Below, in pieces: positions 4,910 to 16,811 of a DNA stretch of 64,000 nucleotides. The position numbers were made by a program, and so were the translations under genes. Below the pieces are notes generated by a model. The model worked only from the letters and a program-made list of their open reading frames with translations. It had not been told where the DNA came from and ran no database searches. Numbering within the stretch: position 1 is the stretch's first letter; the number at the start of each line of letters is the position of its first letter. Source of the DNA: Prauserella alba (lineage in GTDB: Bacteria > Actinomycetota > Actinomycetes > Mycobacteriales > Pseudonocardiaceae); contig NZ_JAMTCH010000004.1 in assembly GCF_024171735.1 (NCBI RefSeq), forward strand, positions 434,001 through 498,000, read 5' to 3'.

Positions 4910-5010
4910 ACCGCCCCTCCCGGCACGGCGCCGGCATCACCTCCGGCAGCGCTACGGCGCGCGCACTCGCGGAGAAGCTGGGATGATCGGCCGACAGCCG
5001 GGAGGTGGCC

Positions 5011-5928
5011 GTGAACGAGAATCACCCACTGCTCGACAACCCGCTGCTCGACACGGGGCTTCCCATCGCCCTGTTCGTCATCATGATCGGGATCGGGCTG
5101 AGCCTCAGCGGCAGGGACTTCAACCAGCTGCTGCGCACTCCCCGGGGCGCCGTTGCCGGGACCGTCGGCCAAGTGGTCCTGATGCCGCTGCTCGGCCTGG
5201 CGCTGGCATGGCTGCTGGCGTTACCGCCGCTCGTCGCGGCCGGCCTGGTGATCATCGCGGCGTGCCCCGGCGGCACGACGTCGAACCTCATCGCGTACCT
5301 GGCCAGGGCCAACGTCGCGCTGTCGATCGTGCTGACGGTGGTCGCCAGCCTCATCACGATCGTGACCCTTCCGGTCTTCGCCAACCTGGCGCTCGGTATC
5401 TGGCCGGTGGCCGGTGTCGGCGAGATCCGGGTGCCCGTGCTGCGCACCATCGCCCTGCTCCTCGTGCTCGTCCTGGTTCCGGTCCTGCTCGGGATGGCGG
5501 TTCGGGCCGCGAAGCCCGCGATCGCCGATGCCATGGAGCGGGTCGTGTCGGTGTTCGGCGGGCTCGTCCTCGCCGCGTTGATCGTGGTGATCTCGGTGTC
5601 GCTGGGCGACGAGTTCTGGGAGTACCTGCGCAGCGCCGGCCTGCCGGTGATCCTGCTCAACCTGGGCGGGCTGGCGATCGGTTTCGGCGCGATGGTGCTG
5701 GCGCGAACCTCGTGGGCCGACCGGGTCGCCGGGGCCGTCGAGCTGGGCATCAAGAACGCCACGATCGGCATCCTGATCGCCGTCACCGTCATCGGGCAGC
5801 CCGAGATGGCGGTGCCGCCCGGGGTATACGGGCTGCTCATGTACGCCTCGGCAGCGGCCGTCATCTGGTACGGGCGGCGACACGCACGACGGCCCGAGCA
5901 CAGGGCGGACGAGCCACACGAGACGTGA
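5011..5928 (+). CDS. Bile acid:sodium symporter family transporter
   Basis: About 305 residues with 9-10 hydrophobic segments. The stretch ACPGGTTSNLIAYLARANV (around residues 85-105) is the conserved crossover motif of the SLC10/BASS family, and GIKNATIGILIA is the second one. These proteins cotransport organic anions with sodium; the bacterial members take up bile acids, pantoate or sulfonates, and the substrate here is unknown. The start is taken at the GTG 6-7 nt after GGGAGG; a GTG two codons upstream is also possible. It has no operon partner. Confidence 0.85.
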   Translation: MNENHPLLDNPLLDTGLPIALFVIMIGIGLSLSGRDFNQLLRTPRGAVAGTVGQVVLMPLLGLALAWLLALPPLVAAGLVIIAACPGGTTSNLIAYLARANVALSIVLTVVASLITIVTLPVFANLALGIWPVAGVGEIRVPVLRTIALLLVLVLVPVLLGMAVRAAKPAIADAMERVVSVFGGLVLAALIVVISVSLGDEFWEYLRSAGLPVILLNLGGLAIGFGAMVLARTSWADRVAGAVELGIKNATIGILIAVTVIGQPEMAVPPGVYGLLMYASAAAVIWYGRRHARRPEHRADEPHET

Positions 5929-6117
5929 CCGGATCGCGAACGCGCCGCACCCGGCGAGTTCCGGCCACAGGTATCCACATCGGACACTAACGAATCGGCG
6001 ACCCGGTCGGTTCGTTCCCGTTGAACCGTGCCTTGTCCTCGTTACCGAAACATATTCTACTTCTGGCGGCTCGCTCCGTGCCACTTTCGTGGTGTTCGAG
6101 AGCCCTCCAACTGGCGG

Positions 6118-6956
6118 TTTCCGGTTTCGGGTTACCGCGCGGACCACATGGCGGTCTCCCCCGACACGGCGAACGCGTCGCCGTGTCGGCATCGACAGGC
6201 CACAGCGTGCACGTCCTGGACATCCGCACCGGCAACGAGGTCGGCTCCTTCGAGACCGGCGACAAGCCGCACGATAACGTCTGCACCGACGGCGGCCGGT
6301 ATCTGTGGAACATGTCCATCGGTGAGGTCCACACACCGTTCGACGACCCCGCGATGGACTTCACCAAAGGTGACCGCAGGATCACGGTGGTCGACACCAG
6401 GACCTTCGACGTGGTCCGGGTGATCGACATGCGCGAACGGCTCGATGCGGCGGGACTGGAGAAGTTCTCGGACGCGCTGCGCCCTGCCGTGTTCAGCCCT
6501 GACGAGTCGAGACCGTACTTCCAGGTCTCGTTCTTCAACGGATTCCTCGAATACGACGTGGCCGAGGACCGGATCACCCGCGTCAAGACGCTGCCGAAGA
6601 ACCCCGACACCACCGAGAACCGCACGAAGTGGGTCAACGACTCCCGGCACCACGGGATATCGATGAACCCGTCCGGTGAACGGCTGTGCGTCGCAGGCAC
6701 CATGGACGACTACGCCACCATCGTGAACCGGGAGACCCTGGAGGAAGGTCCGCTCGTACCGTCGGGAAAGCCGTACTGGGCGACCGTCAACGGCGACGGC
6801 AGCCACTGCGTGATCTCCGAGAGCGCCGACGACAGGGTGAGCGCGATCGACTTCACCACCACCGGGGAGAAGGTCGCGTCGATACCTTTCGGCGACCATC
6901 CACAGCGGATCCGTCTCGGGCACGTCCCCCGGGCATGGGCGGCTTCCGGCCGGTGA
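6118..6956 (+). pseudogene. Degraded YncE-like beta-propeller protein, 5' lost and frameshifted
   Basis: From about 6184 the frame encodes propeller repeats (GHSVHVLDIRTGNEVGSFET, then ERLCVAGTMDDYATIVNR and HPQRIRLG) typical of YncE/YVTN-type seven-bladed proteins of actinobacteria. The preceding blade, GYRADHMAVSPDT, lies in a different frame (6118-6167); the two join as SPDT/GERVAVSAST if one base is restored near 6166-6168. Upstream of 6118 there is no plausible start, signal peptide or first blade. About 270 codons of a protein usually longer than this remain. I conclude that the gene lost its 5' part and carries an indel; a sequencing error could explain the indel but not the missing start. 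Confidence 0.75.
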
Positions 6957-7041
6957 ACCGAGGTTAGTACGGCGAGCGCGTGACGGCCGGCGAGGCGTAG
7001 CTTCGACCGGCTGATCGGACCGGCCGTGCTCACCCTCCGGA

Positions 7042-7683
7042 TCACTCCGGCGGTGCCTGCCCGACCAGCATCATGAGTGTGTCGGCGACCTCGTCGACCG
7101 CCTCATACTGAGCCCGGGCCGGCAAGTCCGCGCACCACACGGGCGCCTGGCTCATCGCCGCGTGCATGCATTGCAGCACGGTGTCGACGCCGGTCACCGT
7201 GAATTCGCCAGCGGCGACGCCCTCCTCGATCAGCGCACGGAAGAGCCGGTCGTGTCGCTGACGCAACTCCTTGATGCTTTCGCGCTGTTCGTGCGGCCAG
7301 CGGCGCGGCACCAAAAACACCTGGAGCGCGGCCGGATGGTCACGCACCGCGATCAGCACGTGTTCGTGAATCAGAGCGCGAAGCCGGTCCGCCGCCGACC
7401 CGCTCGTTCCGTCGACCAGTTTCTGCAGGCGCGCGGTCCACTCGGTGCCCAACGTCTCGATAGCGGCGGTACCGAGCTCGTCCTTGCTCGAGAAGTAGTA
7501 ATACAGCGAGCCCTTGGTCACGTCGAGCCGCTCCGCGACGTCTTCGAGGCTGACCGCGTCGTAGCCGCGTTCGCCGAACAGCTCGGCCGCCGCGGTGAGG
7601 ATCTCCTGAATCCGCCGTCCCCGCTTGCGCTGTACCCGGCTGGACGCCGATCGCGTCGGCTCGATCGTCTCCTCGGTGCTCAT
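7042..7683 (-). CDS. TetR/AcrR family regulator of the cyclohexanecarboxylate operon
   Basis: 213 residues. The N-terminal HTH (about residues 25-70: EILTAAAELFGERGYDAVSL then LDVTKGSLYYYFSSKDEL) is a standard TetR DNA-binding domain, followed by a helical ligand domain with the pattern seen in regulators that sense acyl-CoAs. It diverges from the badI-gcdH operon with 122 bp between the two starts, and that gap has two inverted repeats. The likely role is a repressor released by a pathway CoA thioester such as cyclohexanecarboxyl-CoA or 2-oxo product; this is inference from position. GGGAGG lies 6 nt before the ATG. Confidence 0.85.
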   Translation of the reverse strand: MSTEETIEPTRSASSRVQRKRGRRIQEILTAAAELFGERGYDAVSLEDVAERLDVTKGSLYYYFSSKDELGTAAIETLGTEWTARLQKLVDGTSGSAADRLRALIHEHVLIAVRDHPAALQVFLVPRRWPHEQRESIKELRQRHDRLFRALIEEGVAAGEFTVTGVDTVLQCMHAAMSQAPVWCADLPARAQYEAVDEVADTLMMLVGQAPPE

Positions 7684-7722
7684 GCCAATCCTCCCTCACC
7701 TGCTATCGACTACAGCGTACTC

Positions 7723-7779
7723 ATTTGACTTTACGGTCAAATATTGACTATCACTTCAAACTTCGTCACCGTAGTCAAT
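7723..7779. promoter_or_regulatory. Putative TetR operators in the badI/tetR divergent promoter
   Basis: ATTTGAC-N6-GTCAAAT (7723-7742) is a perfect 7-bp inverted repeat. Directly after it, ATTGACTA (7743-7750) and TAGTCAAT (7772-7779) form a second, 8-bp inverted repeat with a 21-nt spacer. Both share the TTGAC/GTCAA core. They are placed between the divergent starts at 7683 and 7806, where a TetR dimer would block both promoters. Confidence 0.7.
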
Positions 7780-7805
7780 GAACCGACTCGCGAAGGAGCA
7801 CAGCT

Positions 7806-8600
7806 GTGAGCTACGAGGACATCCGCTACGAGATCGACGGCCCGGCGGCGGTGATCGCCATCGACCGTCCGGAGCGCTACAACGCCTTCCGCGGCAGAAC
7901 GGTCGAGGAGCTCATCAAGGCCTTCCGCGCAGCGTGGGCCGACCCGCAGGTACAGGCCGTGATCCTCACCGCAACGGGCGAGAAGGCGTTCTGCACCGGC
8001 GGCGACGTGAAACAGCGCGCCGAGACCGGCGACTACGGCCCCACCGAGAGCGGGATGTTCGAGATCGGCAACCTGCACAAGCTGATCCGCGACATCCCCA
8101 AGCCCGTGATCGCCGCGGTCAACGGCATCGCCGTCGGCGGCGGTCACGTGCTTCACGTGCTCTGCGACGTCTCCATCGCCAGCGAGACCGCGCGCTTCGG
8201 CCAGGCGGGTCCGAAGGTCGGCTCGTTCGACGCCGGGTTCGGCACCGCCTACCTCGCCAGGGTGGTCGGCGAGAAGAAGGCCCGCGAGATCTGGTTCTGG
8301 TGTCGCCAGTACGACGCGACCGAAGCCGAGCGGATGGGCCTGGTCAACGCCGTCGTGCCCGCCGCCGAACTGCGCAAGACCGCTCTGGAGTGGGCCCGCG
8401 AGGTGGCCGAGAAGAGCCCGACCGCCATCCGCTTCTGCAAGCAGTCGTTCAACGCCGACACCGACCATCAGGCCGGTCTGTCCAATTTGGCCATGTCCGC
8501 GCTCGACCTGTTCACGGCTTCCCCCGAGGGGCTGGAAGGCGCGATCGCCTTCGCCGAGAAGCGCAAGCCCGACTTCGCGCAGCACGTGAACTGGCACTGA
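7806..8600 (+). CDS. badI: 2-ketocyclohexanecarboxyl-CoA hydrolase (BadI)
   Basis: 264 residues, crotonase fold. BadI adds water to 2-ketocyclohexanecarboxyl-CoA and opens the ring to give pimeloyl-CoA. The sequence follows Rhodopseudomonas BadI closely in the parts I remember: RPERYNAFRGRTVEELIKA, FCTGGD, the oxyanion-hole GIAVGGGHVLH, FGQAGPKVGSFDAGFGTAYL and ARVVGEKKAREIW. This pattern differs from ordinary enoyl-CoA hydratases and is shared with MenB-like enzymes. GTG start with AAGGAG 7 nt upstream. First gene of the operon, 2 nt before aliB. Confidence 0.88.
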   Translation: MSYEDIRYEIDGPAAVIAIDRPERYNAFRGRTVEELIKAFRAAWADPQVQAVILTATGEKAFCTGGDVKQRAETGDYGPTESGMFEIGNLHKLIRDIPKPVIAAVNGIAVGGGHVLHVLCDVSIASETARFGQAGPKVGSFDAGFGTAYLARVVGEKKAREIWFWCRQYDATEAERMGLVNAVVPAAELRKTALEWAREVAEKSPTAIRFCKQSFNADTDHQAGLSNLAMSALDLFTASPEGLEGAIAFAEKRKPDFAQHVNWH

Positions 8601-8602
8601 CG

Positions 8603-9751
8603 ATGGACTTCACCTTCTCGTCCGAAGAGGACGCCTACCGACAGGAATTGCAGCGCTTCGCCACCAAGGTGCTCGCGCCGCACTATCAGTCCGACGACAA
8701 GGTGGCGAAGCTGCGGTCCGAGCTCGTGACCGACATGGCGGCCATGGGACTGACCGGTCTGCGCATCCCGGAGCGGCACGGCGGCCAGGAGGCCACCGCG
8801 GTCATCGCCGGGATGGCCGCCGAAGAGGTCGCACGGGGCGACTTCAACGCGGGCTACCTGATCATCGTGAACGCGCTGATCAGCGACATCCTCACCCGCA
8901 ACGCCACCGAGCAGCAGCAAGCCGCCTGGCTGCCGCCGATCGCCTCGGGCGAGGCGTTGCCCGCGTTCTGCATCACCGAGCCCGAACACGGCACCGACGC
9001 CGCGAAACTGGAAACGAAGGCCGAACCCGACGGGAGTGGGGGCTGGCGGCTCTCGGGCGAGAAGACGTCCATCACGCTCGGCATGGCCGCGCACTCGGCA
9101 CTCGTGCTCGCCCGCACCGGCGGCCCCGGCGCCCGCGGCGTCAGCGCGTTCTACGTCGACCTCGACAAGCGCTACGTCTCCCGGTCCGCGTTCGACGACC
9201 TGGGCAGCCGCGCCATCGGCCGCGCTTCGCTGCACTTCGACGGGCTTCCCGTGAGCCGTGAACAGCTCGTCGGCGCCGAGGGCGAGGGGTTCGTCTCGGT
9301 GATGCAGGGCTTCGACTACTCCCGCGCGATCATCGGGCTGGCCTGCCTCGGCGCCGCCGCGGCCTCGCTCGACGAGGCCGTGCAGTGGGCCCGCGACAGG
9401 GAGACGTTCGGCTCCCCGATCGGCACGTTCCAGGGCGTCGCGTTCCCGCTCGCCGAGTACACCACGTACCTCAAGGGCGCGCGGCACGTCTGCTACGAGG
9501 CGCTGTGGCGCAAGGACAACGACCTCGAGCACAGCAGCGAGGCCGCCATGGCGAAATTCTGGGCGCCCAAGCTCGCCACGGAGGCGATCCACCAGTGCCT
9601 GCTCACGTTCGGGCACCTCGGCTACTCCAGCGAAAGCCCGGTCGGGCAGCGGCTCCGCGACGTCATCGGCCTCGAGATCGGCGACGGCACCGCACAAGTC
9701 TCCAAGCTCGTCATCGCCCGCAACCTCCTCGGCCGCAACTACGCACCCTGA
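8603..9751 (+). CDS. aliB: Cyclohexanecarboxyl-CoA dehydrogenase (AliB-like acyl-CoA dehydrogenase)
   Basis: 382 residues with the three-part acyl-CoA dehydrogenase layout. In this operon the expected reaction is oxidation of cyclohexanecarboxyl-CoA to cyclohex-1-ene-1-carboxyl-CoA, with electrons to FAD and then ETF. FAD-binding motifs are visible (AFCITEPEHGTDAAK, about 115-130; GEKTSITLG, about 153). The usual catalytic glutamate of the EGT motif is replaced by aspartate: the segment reads EIGDGTAQVSK with D361. That fits a bulky alicyclic substrate but does not prove it. Starts 2 nt after badI. Assignment to CHC-CoA rests largely on the neighbours badI, badH, aliA and badK. Confidence 0.8.
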   Translation: MDFTFSSEEDAYRQELQRFATKVLAPHYQSDDKVAKLRSELVTDMAAMGLTGLRIPERHGGQEATAVIAGMAAEEVARGDFNAGYLIIVNALISDILTRNATEQQQAAWLPPIASGEALPAFCITEPEHGTDAAKLETKAEPDGSGGWRLSGEKTSITLGMAAHSALVLARTGGPGARGVSAFYVDLDKRYVSRSAFDDLGSRAIGRASLHFDGLPVSREQLVGAEGEGFVSVMQGFDYSRAIIGLACLGAAAASLDEAVQWARDRETFGSPIGTFQGVAFPLAEYTTYLKGARHVCYEALWRKDNDLEHSSEAAMAKFWAPKLATEAIHQCLLTFGHLGYSSESPVGQRLRDVIGLEIGDGTAQVSKLVIARNLLGRNYAP

Positions 9752-9762
9752 AAGGCACAACC

Positions 9763-10503
9763 ATGGGCAAGCTCACCGACAAGATCACCATCGTGACCGG
9801 CGCGGGCCAGGGCATCGGCCGCGGCATCGCCGAAAAGCTCGCCGCCGAGGGCGCGACGGTGGTCGTCACCGACGTCAACGAGGTCACCGCAAAGGAGACG
9901 GCCGAGGCGATCGGCGGCGCCGGGATCCGTACCGACGTCACCTCGCGCGAATCCACCGCCGCGATGGTCGAGCAGGTGACGAACCGGTTCGGCCGCATCG
10001 ACGCGCTGGTCAACAACGCGGGCTGGGACAAGGCGGGCCCGTTCGTCGACTCCGATCCGGCCGACTGGGACCGCGTCGTGCAGATCAACCTCTACGGCGT
10101 GCTGAACACCTGCAAGGCCGTGCTGCCGGTGCTCGCCGAGCAGGGACACGGCTCCGTCGTCAACATCGCCTCCGACGCAGGCCGGGTCGGTTCCTCCGGC
10201 GAGGCCGTGTACTCGGCGGCCAAGGGCGGCGTCATCGCGTTCACCAAGTCGATCGCGCGCGAGATGGCCCGCAGCCAGGTCAACGCCAACGCCGTGTGCC
10301 CCGGCCCCGCCGACACCGCGCTGTTCGCCTCGATCGGCGGCGACGACCCGAAGCTGCGCGAAGCACTCACCAAGGCGATCCCGTTCCGCAGGCTCGCGCA
10401 GCCGAGCGACCTCGCGGGCGTCGTCGCCTTCCTCGCCTCCGATGAGGCCGCCTATGTCACCGGCCAGACCGTCAGCGTCAGCGGCGGCCTCACCATGAGT
10501 TGA
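9763..10503 (+). CDS. badH: 2-hydroxycyclohexanecarboxyl-CoA dehydrogenase (BadH), SDR family
   Basis: 246 residues, classical short-chain dehydrogenase. It oxidises 2-hydroxycyclohexanecarboxyl-CoA to the 2-keto compound, the BadI substrate, with NAD. The nucleotide motif TGAGQGIGRG is at about residues 12-21, NNAG at about 84, and the catalytic YxxxK is in GEAVYSAAKGG (about 150). The stretches NIASDAGRVGSSGEAVYSAA, VCPGPADTALF and TGQTVSVSGGLTMS are very like R. palustris BadH. It begins 11 nt after aliB and ends 13 nt before aliA. Confidence 0.88.
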   Translation: MGKLTDKITIVTGAGQGIGRGIAEKLAAEGATVVVTDVNEVTAKETAEAIGGAGIRTDVTSRESTAAMVEQVTNRFGRIDALVNNAGWDKAGPFVDSDPADWDRVVQINLYGVLNTCKAVLPVLAEQGHGSVVNIASDAGRVGSSGEAVYSAAKGGVIAFTKSIAREMARSQVNANAVCPGPADTALFASIGGDDPKLREALTKAIPFRRLAQPSDLAGVVAFLASDEAAYVTGQTVSVSGGLTMS

Positions 10504-10516
10504 TCCGGAGTCCCTC

Positions 10517-12172
10517 ATGTCCTTCACGACGATCCTCAACGACGAGCAGATCGACACCTACACCCGCGCCGGGTTCTGGGTGAATCGCACGATCACCGAT
10601 CACCTCGACGACGTGGCAGCGGCGACACCGGACAAGACCGCGTTCGTCGACTCGCGCCGCAGCGTGACCTACGGCGGGCTCAAGCAGGAGGTCGACCGGT
10701 GCGCACTGGGCCTGCTGGAGCTCGGCGTTCGTCCCGGTGACGTCGTCTCCTTCCAGCTGCCGAACTGGATCGAATGGGTGGTTGTCCACTACGCGGCCAG
10801 CCGAATCGGCGCCATCAGCAACCCGCTGATCCCGATCTACCGCGAGCGCGAGGTGGGCTTCATGGTCGGCCTCGCCGGGTCCAAAGTACTCGTGGTGCCG
10901 GATTCCTTCCGCGGCTTCGACTACCCGGCGATGGTCGACAAGCTCCGTCCACAGTGGCCCGACCTGGAACACGTGCTGGTCGTGGGCTCGTCATGGGACG
11001 AATTCGCCGCGACGCCGTGGGAGGAGCGCCGCGACCCCGCCGAACTCGCGGACCTGCGCCCGGACCCCAACGACGTCACGCTGCTCATCTTCACCTCGGG
11101 CACGACCGGTGAGCCGAAGGGCGTGATGCACACGCACAACACCGCGATAGCGGCCAACAACCCGCTCCCGGAGCGGCTCGGGATCACCTCCGACAGCGTG
11201 ATCCACATGGCCTCGACACTCGCCCACCTCACCGGGTTCCTCTACGGCGCGCGGCTGCCCGTGCAGAACGGCGCGACCTGCGTACTTCAGGACGTCTGGG
11301 ACGCCACCCGGTTCGTCGAACTGGTCGCCGAGCACGGCATCACCTACACGTCGGCGGCCACACCGTTCCTGCACGACCTGCTCTCCGCACCGAACCTCGG
11401 CGAACACGACCTGTCGTCGCTGCGGCGGTTCTGCTGCATGGGCGCACCCATCCCCAGGGCACTGGTGCGCGAGGCGCGCAGCAAACTGTCCGGGCTCGTC
11501 GTGCTCGGCGGCTGGGGGCAGAGCGAGAACGCCCTCGTCACACTCGGCATCCCGGGCGACCCCGACGAGAAGCTGATCGACACCGACGGGTACCCGTGGC
11601 CGGGCATGCACCTCCGAGTCGTGGACAGCGACGGGAAGGAACTGCCCCCTGGCACCGAGGGCAGATTGCAGGTGACCGGACCATTCCTGTTCGTCGGCTA
11701 CGCTGAGCGCCTCGACATGACCCGAGCGTGCTTCTCCCCTACCGATGAGGGCGAAGCGGGCGGAGCAGCGTGGTTCGACACCGGCGACCTGGCCGTACTC
11801 GACGCCGACGGCTATCTGCGCATCGCCGGCCGCACCAAGGACGTGATCGTCCGCGGCGGCGAGAACATCCCGGTCGCCTACGTCGAGAACACGCTCTACG
11901 AACACCCGGACATCGACGCGGTCGCCGTCGTGGCCGTACCCGACCCACGCCTCCAAGAACGGGCATGCGCGTGTGTCGTGCTCAAGCCGGACTCCGCCGA
12001 GCTGGATCTGGAGACGATGCGGACGTTCCTGGCCGAGAAGGGCGTGGCCAAGCAGTACTGGCCGGAACTGCTGGAAGTGATGTCCCAGCTGCCGCGCACC
12101 CCCAGCGGCAAGATCCAGAAGTTCCAGCTGCGAACGCAAGTCGCTCCCCAAGCCACCGAGGACGGACCATGA
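10517..12172 (+). CDS. aliA: Cyclohexanecarboxylate-CoA ligase (AliA-like, AMP-forming)
   Basis: 551 residues, ANL superfamily. It would activate cyclohexanecarboxylate with ATP and CoA, the entry step of the pathway. The P-loop LIFTSGTTGEPKGVMHTH is near residue 190, the A5-type GGWGQSENALV near 330, the hinge GRTKDVIVRGGENI near 440, and the catalytic lysine is K532 in RTPSGKIQKF. The absence of a phenyl-specific signature means the substrate comes from context; a related alicyclic or medium-chain acid is possible. The stop overlaps badK by an ATGA. Confidence 0.82.
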   Translation: MSFTTILNDEQIDTYTRAGFWVNRTITDHLDDVAAATPDKTAFVDSRRSVTYGGLKQEVDRCALGLLELGVRPGDVVSFQLPNWIEWVVVHYAASRIGAISNPLIPIYREREVGFMVGLAGSKVLVVPDSFRGFDYPAMVDKLRPQWPDLEHVLVVGSSWDEFAATPWEERRDPAELADLRPDPNDVTLLIFTSGTTGEPKGVMHTHNTAIAANNPLPERLGITSDSVIHMASTLAHLTGFLYGARLPVQNGATCVLQDVWDATRFVELVAEHGITYTSAATPFLHDLLSAPNLGEHDLSSLRRFCCMGAPIPRALVREARSKLSGLVVLGGWGQSENALVTLGIPGDPDEKLIDTDGYPWPGMHLRVVDSDGKELPPGTEGRLQVTGPFLFVGYAERLDMTRACFSPTDEGEAGGAAWFDTGDLAVLDADGYLRIAGRTKDVIVRGGENIPVAYVENTLYEHPDIDAVAVVAVPDPRLQERACACVVLKPDSAELDLETMRTFLAEKGVAKQYWPELLEVMSQLPRTPSGKIQKFQLRTQVAPQATEDGP

Positions 12173-12957
12173 CCTTCGAAACTGGGCTCACGTTCGAAAC
12201 GCTGCTCGTCGATGTCACCGACGGGATCGCGGTGATCACGCTCAGTCGCCCCGAGGTCCGCAACGCGATCGACGCCCGGGTGCAGGCCGACATCGCCGCG
12301 GCGCTCGAGGCGGTCGGCGCCGACGACGAGGTCGGTGCCGTGGTCTTCACCGGCGCGGGCGACCGTGCCTTCGCGGCGGGCGCCGACATCGGCCAACTCA
12401 AGGACTACACCCTGCGCACCGGGCTGGCCGCGCAGATGCAGCGCCTCTACGACACCGTCGAGGCGTTCGAGAAGCCGACGATCGCAGCCGTCGACGGGTA
12501 TGCCCTCGGCGGCGGCTGCGAACTGGCGATGTCCTGTGACATCAGGGTCGCCGGGCCCACCGCGAAGTTCGGCCTACCCGAAACGATGCTCTCGGCACTG
12601 CCGGGTGCTGGCGGCACCCAGCGCATGGCCCGGCTCGTCGGTGTCGGCAGGGCACTCGAGCTCATCCTCACCGGGCGCACGGTCGACGCCGCTGAAGCAC
12701 GCGAGATCGGCCTGGTGACGGAGGTCGCCGACGACCCGCTGGCCGCGGCGCGCGAGACGGCGCGGCGCATCCTGGCCCGAGGCCCGCTGGCCGTGCGGCT
12801 CGCCAAGCTGGTGATCCGCACCGGAATGGACGCCGACCAGCGCACGGGGCTCACCGTGGAACGGCTCGCCCAGGCACTGCTCTACACCACAGACGACAAG
12901 CGCGAAGGCGCTGAGGCCTTCCTGTCCAAGCGCCCCGCCGCGTTCACGGGGAGCTGA
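12169..12957 (+). CDS. badK: Cyclohex-1-ene-1-carboxyl-CoA hydratase (BadK-like enoyl-CoA hydratase)
   Basis: 262 residues, crotonase family. Expected role is hydration of cyclohex-1-ene-1-carboxyl-CoA to the 2-hydroxy compound. Both catalytic glutamates of enoyl-CoA hydratases are present, E118 in [11 protein letters not shown] and E138 in [18 protein letters not shown]. The oxyanion motif is GADIGQLKD (about 71-79). It overlaps aliA by four bases and ends 2 nt before the next gene. As it is the only hydratase in the operon it may also serve the later pimeloyl-CoA beta-oxidation, or a chromosomal hydratase does that. Confidence 0.82.
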
Positions 12958-12959
12958 CC

Positions 12960-13862
12960 ATGATCGACCGCATTCTCGTCGTCGGCGCGGGCGCCATGGG
13001 CTCGCAGATCAGTCTGGTCTGCGCCCTCGCAGGCCATCGCGTCACGCTGTACGACATCGACGCCGACCGGCTGACGGCGGCCCACGGGGACATCGCCGAG
13101 CTGGTCGCAGGCCGTGTCCACAAAGGGCGAATCTCGGCCGGGGAGGGCGAGGCCACCCTTTCCCGCATCGAGGTCACCTCGGAACTCGACGCCGCTCGCA
13201 CTGTCGACTACGTCGTCGAGGCCGCCGTCGAGCAGCTCGACGTCAAGCGTGAACTGTTCGCCCGCCTCGATGCGCTGGTGCCCGAACACGCGATCCTGGC
13301 CTCGAACTCGTCAGGATTCGTGCCCTCCCAGCTCGCCGAGGCCACGCAGCGGCAGGACCGCGTGTGCAACCTGCACTTCTTCAACCCTGCCATGGTGATG
13401 ACGTGCGTCGAGGTGGTCCGCGGCCCGCAGACGTCCGACGCGACGATCGACGTGACCGTGGCGCTTGCCGAGCGGATCGGCAAGACCCCGGTCGTGCTCG
13501 ACCGCGAGATCCCCGGGTTCGTCGCCAACCGCATCCTGGGCGCCGTCCGGGACGAGGCAATCTCGCTGCTGGAAGGCGACTTCGCCTCGGTCGAGGCGAT
13601 CGACACCGCGTGCCGTACGGCGCTCGGCTACCCGATGGGCCCGTTCGAGCTGATGGACCTCACCGGCATCGACATCGGCTATTTCACCAAGCGCGCCCGG
13701 TTCGCCGAGTCCGGAGATCCGGCCGACGCGCCGAGCCGCAGCGTCACCGCACTCGTCGAACGCGGCGAGCTGGGCCGCAAGAGCGGCCTCGGCTGGTACG
13801 CCTACACCGCCGACGGCACCAAGACTCCCCGGCCGCGACCCCAGGAGCCGACATGGACCTGA
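12960..13862 (+). CDS. 3-hydroxyacyl-CoA dehydrogenase
   Basis: 300 residues, single-domain 3-hydroxyacyl/3-hydroxybutyryl-CoA dehydrogenase type. The NAD motif GAGAMGSQ begins at residue 9; the active-site segment NLHFFNPAMVM has the catalytic histidine H139; the C-terminal domain has the dimer segment (YPMGPFELMDLTGIDIGYF). It would oxidise the 3-hydroxypimeloyl-CoA formed after ring opening, or 3-hydroxybutyryl-CoA after the glutaryl-CoA step; the sequence alone does not decide. It starts 2 nt after badK and overlaps the next gene by 10 bp. Confidence 0.85.
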   Translation: MIDRILVVGAGAMGSQISLVCALAGHRVTLYDIDADRLTAAHGDIAELVAGRVHKGRISAGEGEATLSRIEVTSELDAARTVDYVVEAAVEQLDVKRELFARLDALVPEHAILASNSSGFVPSQLAEATQRQDRVCNLHFFNPAMVMTCVEVVRGPQTSDATIDVTVALAERIGKTPVVLDREIPGFVANRILGAVRDEAISLLEGDFASVEAIDTACRTALGYPMGPFELMDLTGIDIGYFTKRARFAESGDPADAPSRSVTALVERGELGRKSGLGWYAYTADGTKTPRPRPQEPTWT

Positions 13863-15007
13863 CCCTGACCGACGAACAGCAGAAGTTCCGCGAATACGCC
13901 CGCGAGTTCCTCGACGGCGAGGTCGTCGCCCACCGCATGGAGTGGGACCGCGCCGAATCCGTCGACACCGCGATCATCGCGAAGCTCGGTGACATGGGCT
14001 TCTTCGGCCTGACGATCCCGGAGGAGTACGGCGGGCTCGGCGGTGACTACATCTCCTACTGCGTCGGCATGGAGGAGCTCGGCCGGGCCGACTCCAACGT
14101 GCGCGGCATCGTGTCGGTGTCGATGGGGCTGGTGGGCAAGGTGATCCTGTCCCACGGCACCGAGGAGCAGAAACGCCACTGGCTGACGAAGATCGCGACC
14201 GGTGAGGCGCTCGCGTGCTTCGGGCTCACCGAACCGGACACCGGGTCGGACGCGGGAAACCTGAAAACGCGCGCGGTGCGTGAGGGTGGTGGGGACTACG
14301 TCCTCAACGGACAGAAGATGTTCATCACCAACGCGACGTGGGCGGACGTGTGCCTGGTGTTCGCGCGCACCGGCGAGCCGGGCCCCAAGGGTGTCTCGGC
14401 GTTCCTGGTGCCCACGGACATGCCCGGGTTCGAAACCCGCGAGATCAAGGGCAAGCTCGGCCTGCGCGGCCAGGCGACCGGCGAGGTCTACCTGACCGAC
14501 GTGCGCGTACCCGCATCGGCACGGCTCGGCGAGGAGGGGCAGGGATTCTCGATCGCCATGCACTCGCTCGACAAGGGCCGCGTCTCGGTCGGTGCCGGCT
14601 GCGTCGGCATCATCCAGGGCTGTCTCGACTCCGTTGTGGACTACTCGACCCAGCGCAGGCAGTTCGATCGGCCGCTGGCGTCGTTCCAGCTGATCCAGGA
14701 CATGATCGCGGATATCTCGGTGGAACTCGACGCCGCGCGGATGCTCGTCTACCGGGCCGCCGACCTCATCGAACGCGGCGAACCGTTCGGGGTCGCGGCG
14801 TCGAAGGCGAAGTATTTCGCGAGCGAGGCCGCGGTCCGCGCGGCCAACAGTGCGATCCAGATCTTCGGCGGATACGGCTACATCGACGAGTACCCGGTGC
14901 AGAAATACCTGCGCGACGCCCGTGTGATGACCCTCTACGAGGGCACCAGCCAGATCCAGAAACTGCTCATCGGCCGAGCCGAGACAGGCGTCAACGCCTT
15001 CCTGTGA
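13853..15007 (+). CDS. Acyl-CoA dehydrogenase, probably pimeloyl-CoA dehydrogenase
   Basis: 384 residues. All acyl-CoA dehydrogenase hallmarks are intact: CFGLTEPDTGSDAGNLKT (FAD site, about 120-137), FITNATWAD, GGYGYIDEYPVQKYLRDAR and the catalytic base E363 in LYEGTSQIQK. It looks like a short/medium-chain enzyme. In an operon that makes pimeloyl-CoA and also contains glutaryl-CoA dehydrogenase, the open step is desaturation of pimeloyl-CoA to the 2-enoyl form, so that is the best guess. It overlaps the preceding gene by 10 bp, an unusually long coupling overlap. Confidence 0.75.
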   Translation: MDLTLTDEQQKFREYAREFLDGEVVAHRMEWDRAESVDTAIIAKLGDMGFFGLTIPEEYGGLGGDYISYCVGMEELGRADSNVRGIVSVSMGLVGKVILSHGTEEQKRHWLTKIATGEALACFGLTEPDTGSDAGNLKTRAVREGGGDYVLNGQKMFITNATWADVCLVFARTGEPGPKGVSAFLVPTDMPGFETREIKGKLGLRGQATGEVYLTDVRVPASARLGEEGQGFSIAMHSLDKGRVSVGAGCVGIIQGCLDSVVDYSTQRRQFDRPLASFQLIQDMIADISVELDAARMLVYRAADLIERGEPFGVAASKAKYFASEAAVRAANSAIQIFGGYGYIDEYPVQKYLRDARVMTLYEGTSQIQKLLIGRAETGVNAFL

Positions 15008-15101
15008 CCGTTCCGCACTCGACCTGGTGCCACACCAGGGCCGACCGACCACACCGCAACACACGCACCCAGGCGCTGCGCGCCGCAGAAAGGTAGAACC
15101 G

Positions 15102-16268
15102 ATGACTCAGACCCCGCTCGGCCTGTTCGGCAGCGAGGAACTGATCGGCGAGGAGGAGCGCGCGATCCGCGACACGGTGCGCGAGTTCACCGCCGACCAC
15201 ATCCGCCCGCACCTCGCGGACTGGTTCGAACACGCCCGGATCCCGGCCCGCGAACTGGCCCGCGAGCTCGGCAAGCTCGGCGTGCTCGGCATGCACCTGG
15301 AGGGCTACGACTGCGCCGGTACCAGCGCCACCGCCTACGGCCTCGCCTGCCTCGAACTGGAGGCCGCCGACTCGGGTCTGCGCAGCCTCGTCTCGGTGCA
15401 GGGCTCGCTGGCGATGTTCGCGATCTGGCGCTGGGGTTCGGAGGAGCAGAAGCAGGAATGGCTGCCCCGGATGGCCGCAGGCGAGGCGATCGGCTGTTTC
15501 GGACTCACCGAACCGGACTTCGGCTCCGATCCCGGGAGCATGCGCACCCACGCCCGCCGCGACGGTACGGATTGGGTCCTCAACGGCAGCAAGATGTGGA
15601 TCACCAACGGTTCGGTCGCGGATGTCGCCGTCGTGTGGGCCCAGACCGACGACAAGATCCGCGGCTTCGTCGTGCCGACCGACACACCGGGTTTCTCCGC
15701 CCCCGAGATCACGCAGAAGCTCTCGCTGCGGGCATCGGTGACCAGCGAACTGGTGCTCGAGGACGTGCGACTGCCCGACTCCGCGATACTGCCCGAAGCC
15801 CGCGGCCTGTCGGGCCCCCTGTCCTGCCTCAACGAGGCTCGCTACGGCATCGTGTTCGGGGCACTCGGCGCGGCCCGCGACTGCCTCGAGACGACGATCG
15901 CCTACACCGGCGAACGCGACATCTTCGGCAAACCGCTGTCCGGCTACCAGGCCACGCAGCTCAAGCTCGCCGACATGGCGCTGGAACTCGGCAAGGGGAT
16001 GCTGCTCGCGCTGCAACTCGGACGACTCAAAGACGCGCACCGGCTGCGGCCCGAACAGGTGAGCGTCGGCAAGCTGAACAACGTGCGGGAGGCGTTGGCC
16101 ATCGCCCGCGAATGCCGGACCCTGCTGGGCGCCAACGGAATCAGCCTCGAGTACCCGGTGCTGCGGCACGCCAACAACCTCGAGTCCGTCCTGACGTACG
16201 AGGGCACCTCCGAGGTGCACCAGCTCGTCATCGGCCAGGCACTCACCGGGCAGGCGGCCTTCCGCTGA
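15102..16268 (+). CDS. gcdH: Glutaryl-CoA dehydrogenase
   Basis: 388 residues. It oxidatively decarboxylates glutaryl-CoA to crotonyl-CoA and CO2. Family-specific features are visible: R94 in SGLRSLVSVQGSLAM, the position of the arginine that binds the terminal carboxylate in known enzymes, the catalytic E367 in TYEGTSEVHQLVIG, and the C-terminal ALTGQAAF. FAD motif CFGLTEPDFGSDPGSM. The ATG follows AAAGGT by about 8 nt; the gap to the previous gene is 94 nt, so an internal promoter is possible. It closes the route from pimeloyl-CoA via glutaryl-CoA. Confidence 0.88.
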   Translation: MTQTPLGLFGSEELIGEEERAIRDTVREFTADHIRPHLADWFEHARIPARELARELGKLGVLGMHLEGYDCAGTSATAYGLACLELEAADSGLRSLVSVQGSLAMFAIWRWGSEEQKQEWLPRMAAGEAIGCFGLTEPDFGSDPGSMRTHARRDGTDWVLNGSKMWITNGSVADVAVVWAQTDDKIRGFVVPTDTPGFSAPEITQKLSLRASVTSELVLEDVRLPDSAILPEARGLSGPLSCLNEARYGIVFGALGAARDCLETTIAYTGERDIFGKPLSGYQATQLKLADMALELGKGMLLALQLGRLKDAHRLRPEQVSVGKLNNVREALAIARECRTLLGANGISLEYPVLRHANNLESVLTYEGTSEVHQLVIGQALTGQAAFR

Positions 16269-16278
16269 CCGGCTCGTG

Positions 16279-16312
16279 CGGTGGGCCGTCACCGGAGGGT
16301 GCCGGCCCACCG
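16279..16312 (+). terminator. Terminator after the cyclohexanecarboxylate operon
   Basis: CGGTGGGCCG pairs perfectly with CGGCCCACCG across a 14-nt loop, starting 10 nt after the gcdH stop. Confidence 0.65.
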
Positions 16313-16811
16313 TGGTCTCCGGCCGAAGTTCTACGTCTGCCCCGGCGCTGGTCTCGCGGCAAAGCTCATCGCCGATGCCGCACCGCTGCGCGTCGGCCTG
16401 GCACCGCTGAAACGCCTCAACCTGACCACGACTCATCCGTACCCAGCTCCGTCGGATCACTGAAGGCTCGGGCGATACCGGAGCGCACATCACCTACTGT
16501 GCCGCCTCGAGACCGAACGTACGCTCTCCGTCACCCCGGGCCAGTCGATCCCGGTCGGACTCATCGAGCCTCGACCGGAACCTCACCGCCGTGAGACACA
16601 CGTGAGATCTCGCGTGAAACCGTTGTGAGTCAACGGAAAACGTGGTGGTCGACACCATTGACAGCCACGGCGAACGACGGCAGTTTTGCGGTGTCCCCGC
16701 ATGCGCGCGGCCGAGCCCGTTCCTGTCCGCGACGACGCCGACGTCGCTTCGCCCTCTCCTCGCCCGCGACCCCACGCGGGCCGAGCACGCCGATCGAGAG
16801 GTTGCACCACT
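16313..16811. other. Long non-coding stretch
   Basis: About 500 bp with no supported gene. Codon bias in all frames is poor and short overlapping frames have no homology I recognise. It presumably carries the promoter of the membrane acyltransferase; a TTGACA (about 16659-16664) is present, but I find no convincing -10 or operator. Confidence 0.4.

Follow-up and report, generated by a model that had tools for sequence, protein, structure and literature searches.

Eight genes in a 64,000-nt stretch of Prauserella alba DNA, hereafter the window (G000:C2:434001-498000, in a 5.61-Mb assembly of 11 contigs), form a single run on the + strand (7806-16268; open reading frame coordinates checked). 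We consider it likely that they constitute a catabolic operon, probably repressed by a TetR-family protein, for cyclohexanecarboxylate (CHC), a model naphthenic acid in oil-sands waste, or for a close alicyclic acid. The pathway is known, and bad-ali clusters have been published for Rhodococcus and Corynebacterium (PMC5906575, PMC9795900, PMC4591350). What is new lies in the details: the compact form of the operon, the lack of a thiolase and an unusual ring-opening enzyme. We found no publication on the single-run form, its thiolase-bearing relatives, the TetR operator or the loss of a BadI tyrosine, although this search, judged mostly by titles and covering few subscription papers, is weak evidence of novelty.

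Gene content and predicted pathway

The run opens with badI (7806-8600, GTG start), encoding a BadI-like crotonase presumed to be the ring-opening 2-ketocyclohexanecarboxyl-CoA hydrolase. There follow aliB (8603-9751), for an AliB-like cyclohexanecarboxyl-CoA dehydrogenase with predicted base Asp361; badH (9763-10503), for a BadH-like 2-hydroxycyclohexanecarboxyl-CoA dehydrogenase of the short-chain dehydrogenase/reductase (SDR) type; and aliA (10517-12172), for an AliA-like cyclohexanecarboxylate-CoA ligase. The second half comprises an enoyl-CoA hydratase gene (12169-12957), a 3-hydroxyacyl-CoA dehydrogenase (HAD) gene assigned from NCBIfam models (12960-13862; presumed substrate 3-hydroxypimelyl-CoA), a second acyl-CoA dehydrogenase (ACAD) gene assigned from models and motif (13853-15007; presumed substrate pimelyl-CoA), and gcdH (15102-16268), for glutaryl-CoA dehydrogenase. 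From badI to gcdH, the junctions are gaps of 2, 11 and 13 nt, a 4-nt overlap, a 2-nt gap, a 10-nt overlap and a 94-nt gap. Genes, order, strand and spacing are as given in the first-pass annotation, a reading made from the letters alone. The 94-nt gap folds no better than shuffled sequences, and all eight genes would presumably be co-transcribed.

In the proposed pathway, AliA would convert the acid to its CoA thioester, which AliB would oxidize to the 1-ene with an active site in which Gly-Asp replaces the usual Tyr-Glu. A hydratase and BadH would then yield 2-ketocyclohexanecarboxyl-CoA, whose ring BadI would open by reverse Claisen hydrolysis to give pimelyl-CoA. Pimelyl-CoA would be taken to 3-oxopimelyl-CoA by the second ACAD, a hydratase (this one or another) and the HAD, and a thiolase encoded elsewhere in the genome would split 3-oxopimelyl-CoA into acetyl-CoA and glutaryl-CoA. 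GcdH would finally convert glutaryl-CoA to crotonyl-CoA and CO2.

Homologues of AliA, AliB, BadH and BadI are all encoded together in the operon according to NCBIfam models, with TIGR03208, TIGR03207 and TIGR03206 ranking top for AliA, AliB and BadH, respectively. The active-site motif reads GDGT in window AliB and YEGT in both the second ACAD and GcdH. GDGT is found in all 33 close AliBs and in 27 of 29 distant ones, including both NCBI-annotated proteobacterial AliBs; the remaining two have ADGT. Enzymes that act on alpha-substituted substrates, cyclohexane-1-carbonyl-CoA among them, are reported to have a smaller residue in front of the catalytic glutamate (PMC11659651), a pattern that the glycine of window AliB fits. 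The motif speaks against a straight-chain preference for AliB, and the second ACAD, judged by its YEGT, should be a straight-chain enzyme, matching the need for pimelyl-CoA oxidation.

Lower pathway and operon forms in relatives

Gene content and order were compared across 131 loci. The window's eight genes recur in the same order in three Nocardia loci (L040, L041, L046), and seven further loci have a nine-gene run in which a thiolase is added to these eight: Hoyosella altamirensis (L051), four Streptomyces (Streptomyces brasiliensis, S. carpinensis and two Streptomyces sp.; L053, L066-L068) and two metagenome-assembled genomes (MAGs; L055, L091). Because it is repeated in these three Nocardia and seven nine-gene loci, the order is more than chance. 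This thiolase gene is about 400 codons long and separates aliA from badK. In the window these two genes overlap, so the operon has no thiolase gene, as the first-pass annotation had noticed.

Other relatives differ in their lower-pathway genes. Thiolase is present with no HAD match in Intrasporangium (L075), and alongside other dehydrogenases in Geodermatophilus (L076). The order is aliA-badK-acad in Prauserella flavalba (L042) and one other genome (L182), aliA-acad-gcdH in three Amycolatopsis (L045; L038, with both matches in pieces; L039, which also lacks badH) and aliA-acad in A. taiwanensis (L054), and the operon ends after aliA in nine loci (L043, L048, L049, L052, L058, L183-L186). In the Amycolatopsis acidicola operon without badH (L039:10001-15926), the aliB and aliA matches lie only 57 nt apart. 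A four-protein core tree of 27 rows (the window and 26 of the 131 loci; midpoint rooted), which excluded loci lacking a single match of >90% length for a core gene or with AliB at <=60% or AliA at <=50%, unites the thiolase-less forms, except the Blastococcus MAG L056, in one clade of 18 (100/99). The closest branch to the window is its sister, Prauserella (100/98). The nine-gene forms all fall outside the 18-row clade, at several points of the tree. The simplest reading is that thiolase was lost in this clade and that further erosion followed; the midpoint rooting leaves gain formally possible.

The thiolase of L067, the one tested, scores 618.1 bits against the pcaF cut-off of 597, placing it in the 3-oxoadipyl-CoA thiolase family, which fits a dicarboxylic 3-oxoacyl-CoA substrate. 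The window's genome has other thiolases, the closest (G000:C1:973534-974688) being 52% identical to the nine-gene thiolase; its best family is again pcaF, at 461.9 bits and below the cut-off. We considered that the operon thiolase had been relocated within the genome, but saw no moved copy, the best match being this one. The first-pass statement that a chromosomal thiolase must complete the route stands insofar as a thiolase is needed from elsewhere. Its apparent implication of a plasmid-borne operon does not, since the operon lies on a 1.46-Mb contig.

The hydratase had been called badK, a specific name that the models do not bear out: its best NCBIfam match is PaaF (250.5 bits, below the cut-off of 371), and no BadK model is among the 25 NCBIfam matches listed for it. 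In the nine-gene operons it lies inside a block of thiolase, hydratase, HAD, ACAD and gcdH, which resembles the Aromatoleum aab module plus gcdH (PMC9795900). By position, it appears to be part of this lower, aab-like block and could be BadK- or AabB-like, perhaps both. It may carry out both hydrations or the lower one alone; badK is reported missing from many bad-ali clusters (PMC9795900).

Window GcdH finds solved glutaryl-CoA dehydrogenases as its best phmmer matches. By alignment it retains the residues at Glu87, Arg94, Ser95, Tyr369 and Glu370 of 1siq, which we take to be the human enzyme and these its key residues, and they point to a decarboxylating type. A second, stand-alone gcdH in the genome (G000:C1:1763143-1764303) is 89% identical to the operon copy, with the same motifs. 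In a tree that took in 20 of the stand-alone matches and left out the second copy of sister species G258 (78%), this gene groups with its counterparts from four sister species in a clade (100/99) nested among operon-type gcdH (ten-row group, 80/91); for two other sister species, the matches found include no more than a distant version. Because of this nesting, the stand-alone gcdH of the genus seems to share its origin with operon-type gcdH. In the same tree, the Sporosarcina beigongshangi record (Bacillota; L062:10001-20755) is adjacent to Arthrobacter sp. SDTb3-6 (L080), whose cluster layout it shares, either through transfer or as a mixed assembly.

Rhodopseudomonas palustris is not known to have gcdH, pimelyl-CoA dehydrogenase and HAD genes in a single run with its bad/ali genes. 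Its bad/ali system, as cited in PMC9795900, has the AliA, AliB, BadK, BadH and BadI steps in common with the window. The inclusion of gcdH, which the first-pass annotation had singled out as notable, was already published in 2018 for the chcpca cluster of Rhodococcus aetherivorans BCP1 (PMC5906575, Table 2), and gcdH near bad-ali genes was noted in 2022 for Gram-negatives, with gcdH and etfAB linked in Thauera phenolivorans (PMC9795900). The BCP1 cluster brings together badI, badH, aliA, glutaryl-CoA dehydrogenase, acyl-CoA dehydrogenase, enoyl-CoA hydratase and two TetR genes (PMC5906575); the window likewise has gcdH and a TetR gene alongside badI. The Rhodococcus loci in our comparison, which do not include the BCP1 sequence, differ from the window in having a BadH only 47-51% identical, no match best assigned to window AliB and no TTGAC-N6-GTCAA upstream of badI. 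Among them, gcdH occurs in L071, L073, L096 and L117 and is missing from L069 and L074, the records of R. opacus and R. jostii. The bad-ali and aab genes of Aromatoleum sp. CIB and Thauera follow the same upper and lower pathway logic as the window, but with a MarR-type BadR, the operator CAA-N4-TTG and more than one transcription unit (PMC9795900), in contrast to a divergent TetR, another operator and one eight-gene run. The compact actinobacterial operon, with one likely regulator and a thiolase-bearing nine-gene relative, offers a starting point for enzymology and for pathway transfer between harmless laboratory hosts.

The presumed ring-opening enzyme and the substrate

Window BadI is not a member of the curated BadI family: it scores 321.5 bits on TIGR03210, whose cut-off is 467.6. 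Of the first-pass call, homology to BadI holds up, and plain family membership does not. Two MenB models give higher scores, 344.6 (cut-off 380) and 334.5 (cut-off 342.7, which is near), though neither cut-off is reached. The residues at E. coli MenB positions Gln154, Gly156, Ser161, Asp163 and Trp184 are retained in window BadI and in 127 of 127 relatives (matches over 90% of BadI, one from a record named Sporosarcina; L191-L194 excluded, L192-L194 being controls). We presume that Gln154, Gly156 and Trp184 form the bicarbonate pocket of type I MenB. At MenB Tyr258, by contrast, the tyrosine shared by 4/4 NCBI-annotated BadI and 4/4 MenB-type proteins (three annotated, and the genome's own presumed one) is absent from all 127 BadI-like relatives, which have Thr, Ala, Val, Gly, Ser or Leu; window BadI has Thr. 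In the Tyr97 column, which is less sure because it falls in a gappy loop, window BadI has Asp and three of the four MenB-type proteins have Tyr. Both Tyr258 and Tyr97 are described as active-site residues of MenB (PMC3637252).

Phylogeny leaves the affiliation of the window group balanced. The best BadI tree unites annotated BadI with MenB (support 51/96), and in an approximately unbiased (AU) test, whose set omitted L191, some BadI rows and the MenB-like protein of this genome, neither a grouping of the window group with annotated BadI (p-AU 0.216) nor one with MenB (p-AU 0.431) was rejected. Within the actinobacteria, BadI is conserved (window BadI is 82-83% identical to that of Rhodococcus clusters L069-L071, L073 and L074), with the ligase and dehydrogenase partners swapped.

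Window BadI probably works like BadI. It is conceivable, if somewhat doubtful, that the enzyme that opens the ring in such operons, most of them actinobacterial, belongs to a distinct crotonase subfamily rather than to BadI proper, one that keeps the MenB-type Ser161, Asp163, Gln154, Gly156 and Trp184 but has a smaller residue in place of the shared tyrosine. Such an enzyme would act on cyclic beta-keto acyl-CoAs, possibly of a bulkier or substituted kind, hydrolysing them through a somewhat altered and possibly bicarbonate-assisted mechanism, and would act as a fixed hub among differing ligases and dehydrogenases. With the tyrosine missing, the mechanism by which alicyclic rings are opened can be tested directly.

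Several observations count against a CHC operon in addition to the BadI scores, the missing tyrosine and trees in which neither grouping is rejected. The curated cut-offs are missed by all four pathway-specific proteins, with AliB at 395.7 bits (cut-off 575.35), BadH at 285.3 (431.2) and AliA at 563 (792.3); as positive controls, Paraburkholderia BadI (546.7 bits) and Haematobacter AliB (606 bits) exceed their own. The operon has a single hydratase gene for two hydration steps and no thiolase, and neither an electron transfer flavoprotein nor a transporter is encoded within it. The first-pass claim of a CHC route keeps the backing of family models, active-site motifs and conserved order, but its description as complete to crotonyl-CoA fails on the thiolase and the hydratase. 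Furthermore, the ligase of the Rhodococcus loci is just 27-29% identical to window AliA.

The substrate itself is where we see the main competing account, namely that the true substrate is another alicyclic acid or a wider range of them, such as cyclopentanecarboxylate or an alkyl-substituted or terpene-derived ring, and that the loss of the tyrosine makes the BadI pocket roomier. A five-ring acid is expected to lead to adipyl-CoA, with no need for GcdH, and the GcdH of this operon suits an odd C7 dicarboxylate, passing from pimelyl to glutaryl; the best model for AliB is likewise a CHC-CoA dehydrogenase. In favour of a broader range are the absence of the tyrosine throughout the 127 relatives and the constancy of BadI as its partners are exchanged. 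The BCP1 cluster is induced about 70- to 290-fold on CHC and more strongly, 180- to 800-fold, on cyclopentanecarboxylate (PMC5906575), so a bad-ali-gcdH set is no proof of a six-ring substrate, and a badKHI cluster has been suggested to serve for monoterpenes in Aromatoleum strains (PMC9795900). On balance we regard this account as unlikely, with CHC or a close relative still preferred.

We give far less credence to a crotonase that is MenB or another enzyme in an operon for general beta-oxidation of straight-chain or dicarboxylic acids. The higher MenB scores and a lower half that reads as ordinary dicarboxylate beta-oxidation would fit it; both MenB cut-offs are missed, however, the same genome has a separate MenB-like gene on contig C3, MenB Tyr258 is replaced by Thr, and the AliB motif and the model ranking of AliA, AliB and BadH also count against it. 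A shade less probable still is that the operon is a relic, no longer of use to its genome, as the missing thiolase and the loss of lower-pathway genes among relatives might suggest. All eight frames are open, the motifs examined and the operator sites are kept, and the genome has other thiolases, the closest pcaF-like though under the cut-off.

BadI-like proteins also occur in other settings. A BadI-like protein from an Azoarcus plasmid (58% identity; L191:14001-14786) lacks the tyrosine and falls among the actinobacterial BadI-like proteins in a tree; beside its gene lies one for a CoA-transferase, not an AliA set. In Pseudonocardia asaccharolytica, a BadI at 88% identity (L050:10001-10792) has no match to the other operon proteins in the 10 kb flanking it in each direction. 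Another BadI-like group, at ~59-63% identity, is found in family genomes (L144, L146, L147, L152) in other gene settings, often with extra crotonases and SDRs nearby.

Regulation and genomic setting

Three features beyond the first-pass annotation flank or border the operon: a divergent tetR, likely operators and a hairpin. The tetR gene (7042-7683, - strand) encodes a TetR-family regulator that matches many NCBIfam TetR-type models, none over its cut-off. Between it and badI lie a perfect TTGAC-N6-GTCAA (7725-7740), a second likely operator site with one mismatch 19 bp from it (7744-7759), and a possible third with two mismatches, weak alone, 19 bp further (7763-7778). A divergent tetR homologue (>=55% identity) adjoins badI in 34 of the 131 loci, and all 35 tetR-badI intergenic regions, that of the window included, contain the motif (33 perfect, two with one mismatch), against 0.5% at that mismatch level in a first-order Markov control. 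Neighbouring sites with <=2 mismatches are spaced at 19 bp in 41 of 42 cases. A site (<=1 mismatch, <=300 nt upstream of badI) is present in 34/34 loci with tetR and 2/97 without it (L038, L068), a co-occurrence that ties the operator to the regulator; the 34 regions include near-identical Amycolatopsis ones and many relatives are close, so these counts are not independent events.

These patterns indicate that the divergent tetR belongs to the operon unit, and that its product probably binds the tandem sites. A CoA ester of the pathway would release TetR from the operators and so induce the operon. TetR genes of Gram-positives are usually co-oriented with the operon (PMC9795900), and that of the window is divergent. 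Six of the seven nine-gene loci (all but L053) have no window-type divergent tetR next to badI; lacking tetR and operator, most nine-gene operons would therefore be regulated otherwise. The predicted operator could serve as a marker for finding such operons. A wider regulon was considered and dropped, the four perfect sites genome-wide equalling the control count of four. A sigma-70 promoter scan gave no match. Directly after the gcdH stop, a GC-rich hairpin (16269-16322, + strand; -39.9 kcal/mol, z -2.80) is a possible terminator; it has no T run and was missed by a T-run terminator scan.

Among 390 genomes of the family Pseudonocardiaceae, 72, counting that of the window, encode BadI (E 1e-80 or better), and none of the six other species of the genus does. 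Comparison of collinear flanks places the tetR and operon segment that is missing in sisters at 6975-16567 (9.6 kb). Sister G258, with flanks collinear at 87-90% identity, has 835 nt in place of this segment; G256 has 135 nt in place of 6000-16580, and in G255 the flanks adjoin and 5934-16550 is missing. In these latter two, the missing stretch extends further left, to about 5934-6000. At the same site G254 has ~5 kb of other DNA (L244, G254:C14:42000-56000), a possible sign of a variable spot, and for G257 and G259 little or nothing of the left flank was located. A sodium/bile-acid symporter-like gene (5005-5928) lies in DNA shared with the sisters and is not counted in the unit. As to scars of a mobile element, the window has no tRNA, and the repeats that surround the segment seem either coincidental or due to common coding motifs; integrases were not searched for specifically.

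A plasmid location was considered for the operon and discarded, the 1.46-Mb size of its contig making it chromosomal. The 153-kb plasmid of Mycobacterium dioxanotrophicus bears badI (81%) and badH (50%; L195:9001-10534), and parts of the pathway therefore do occur on plasmids.

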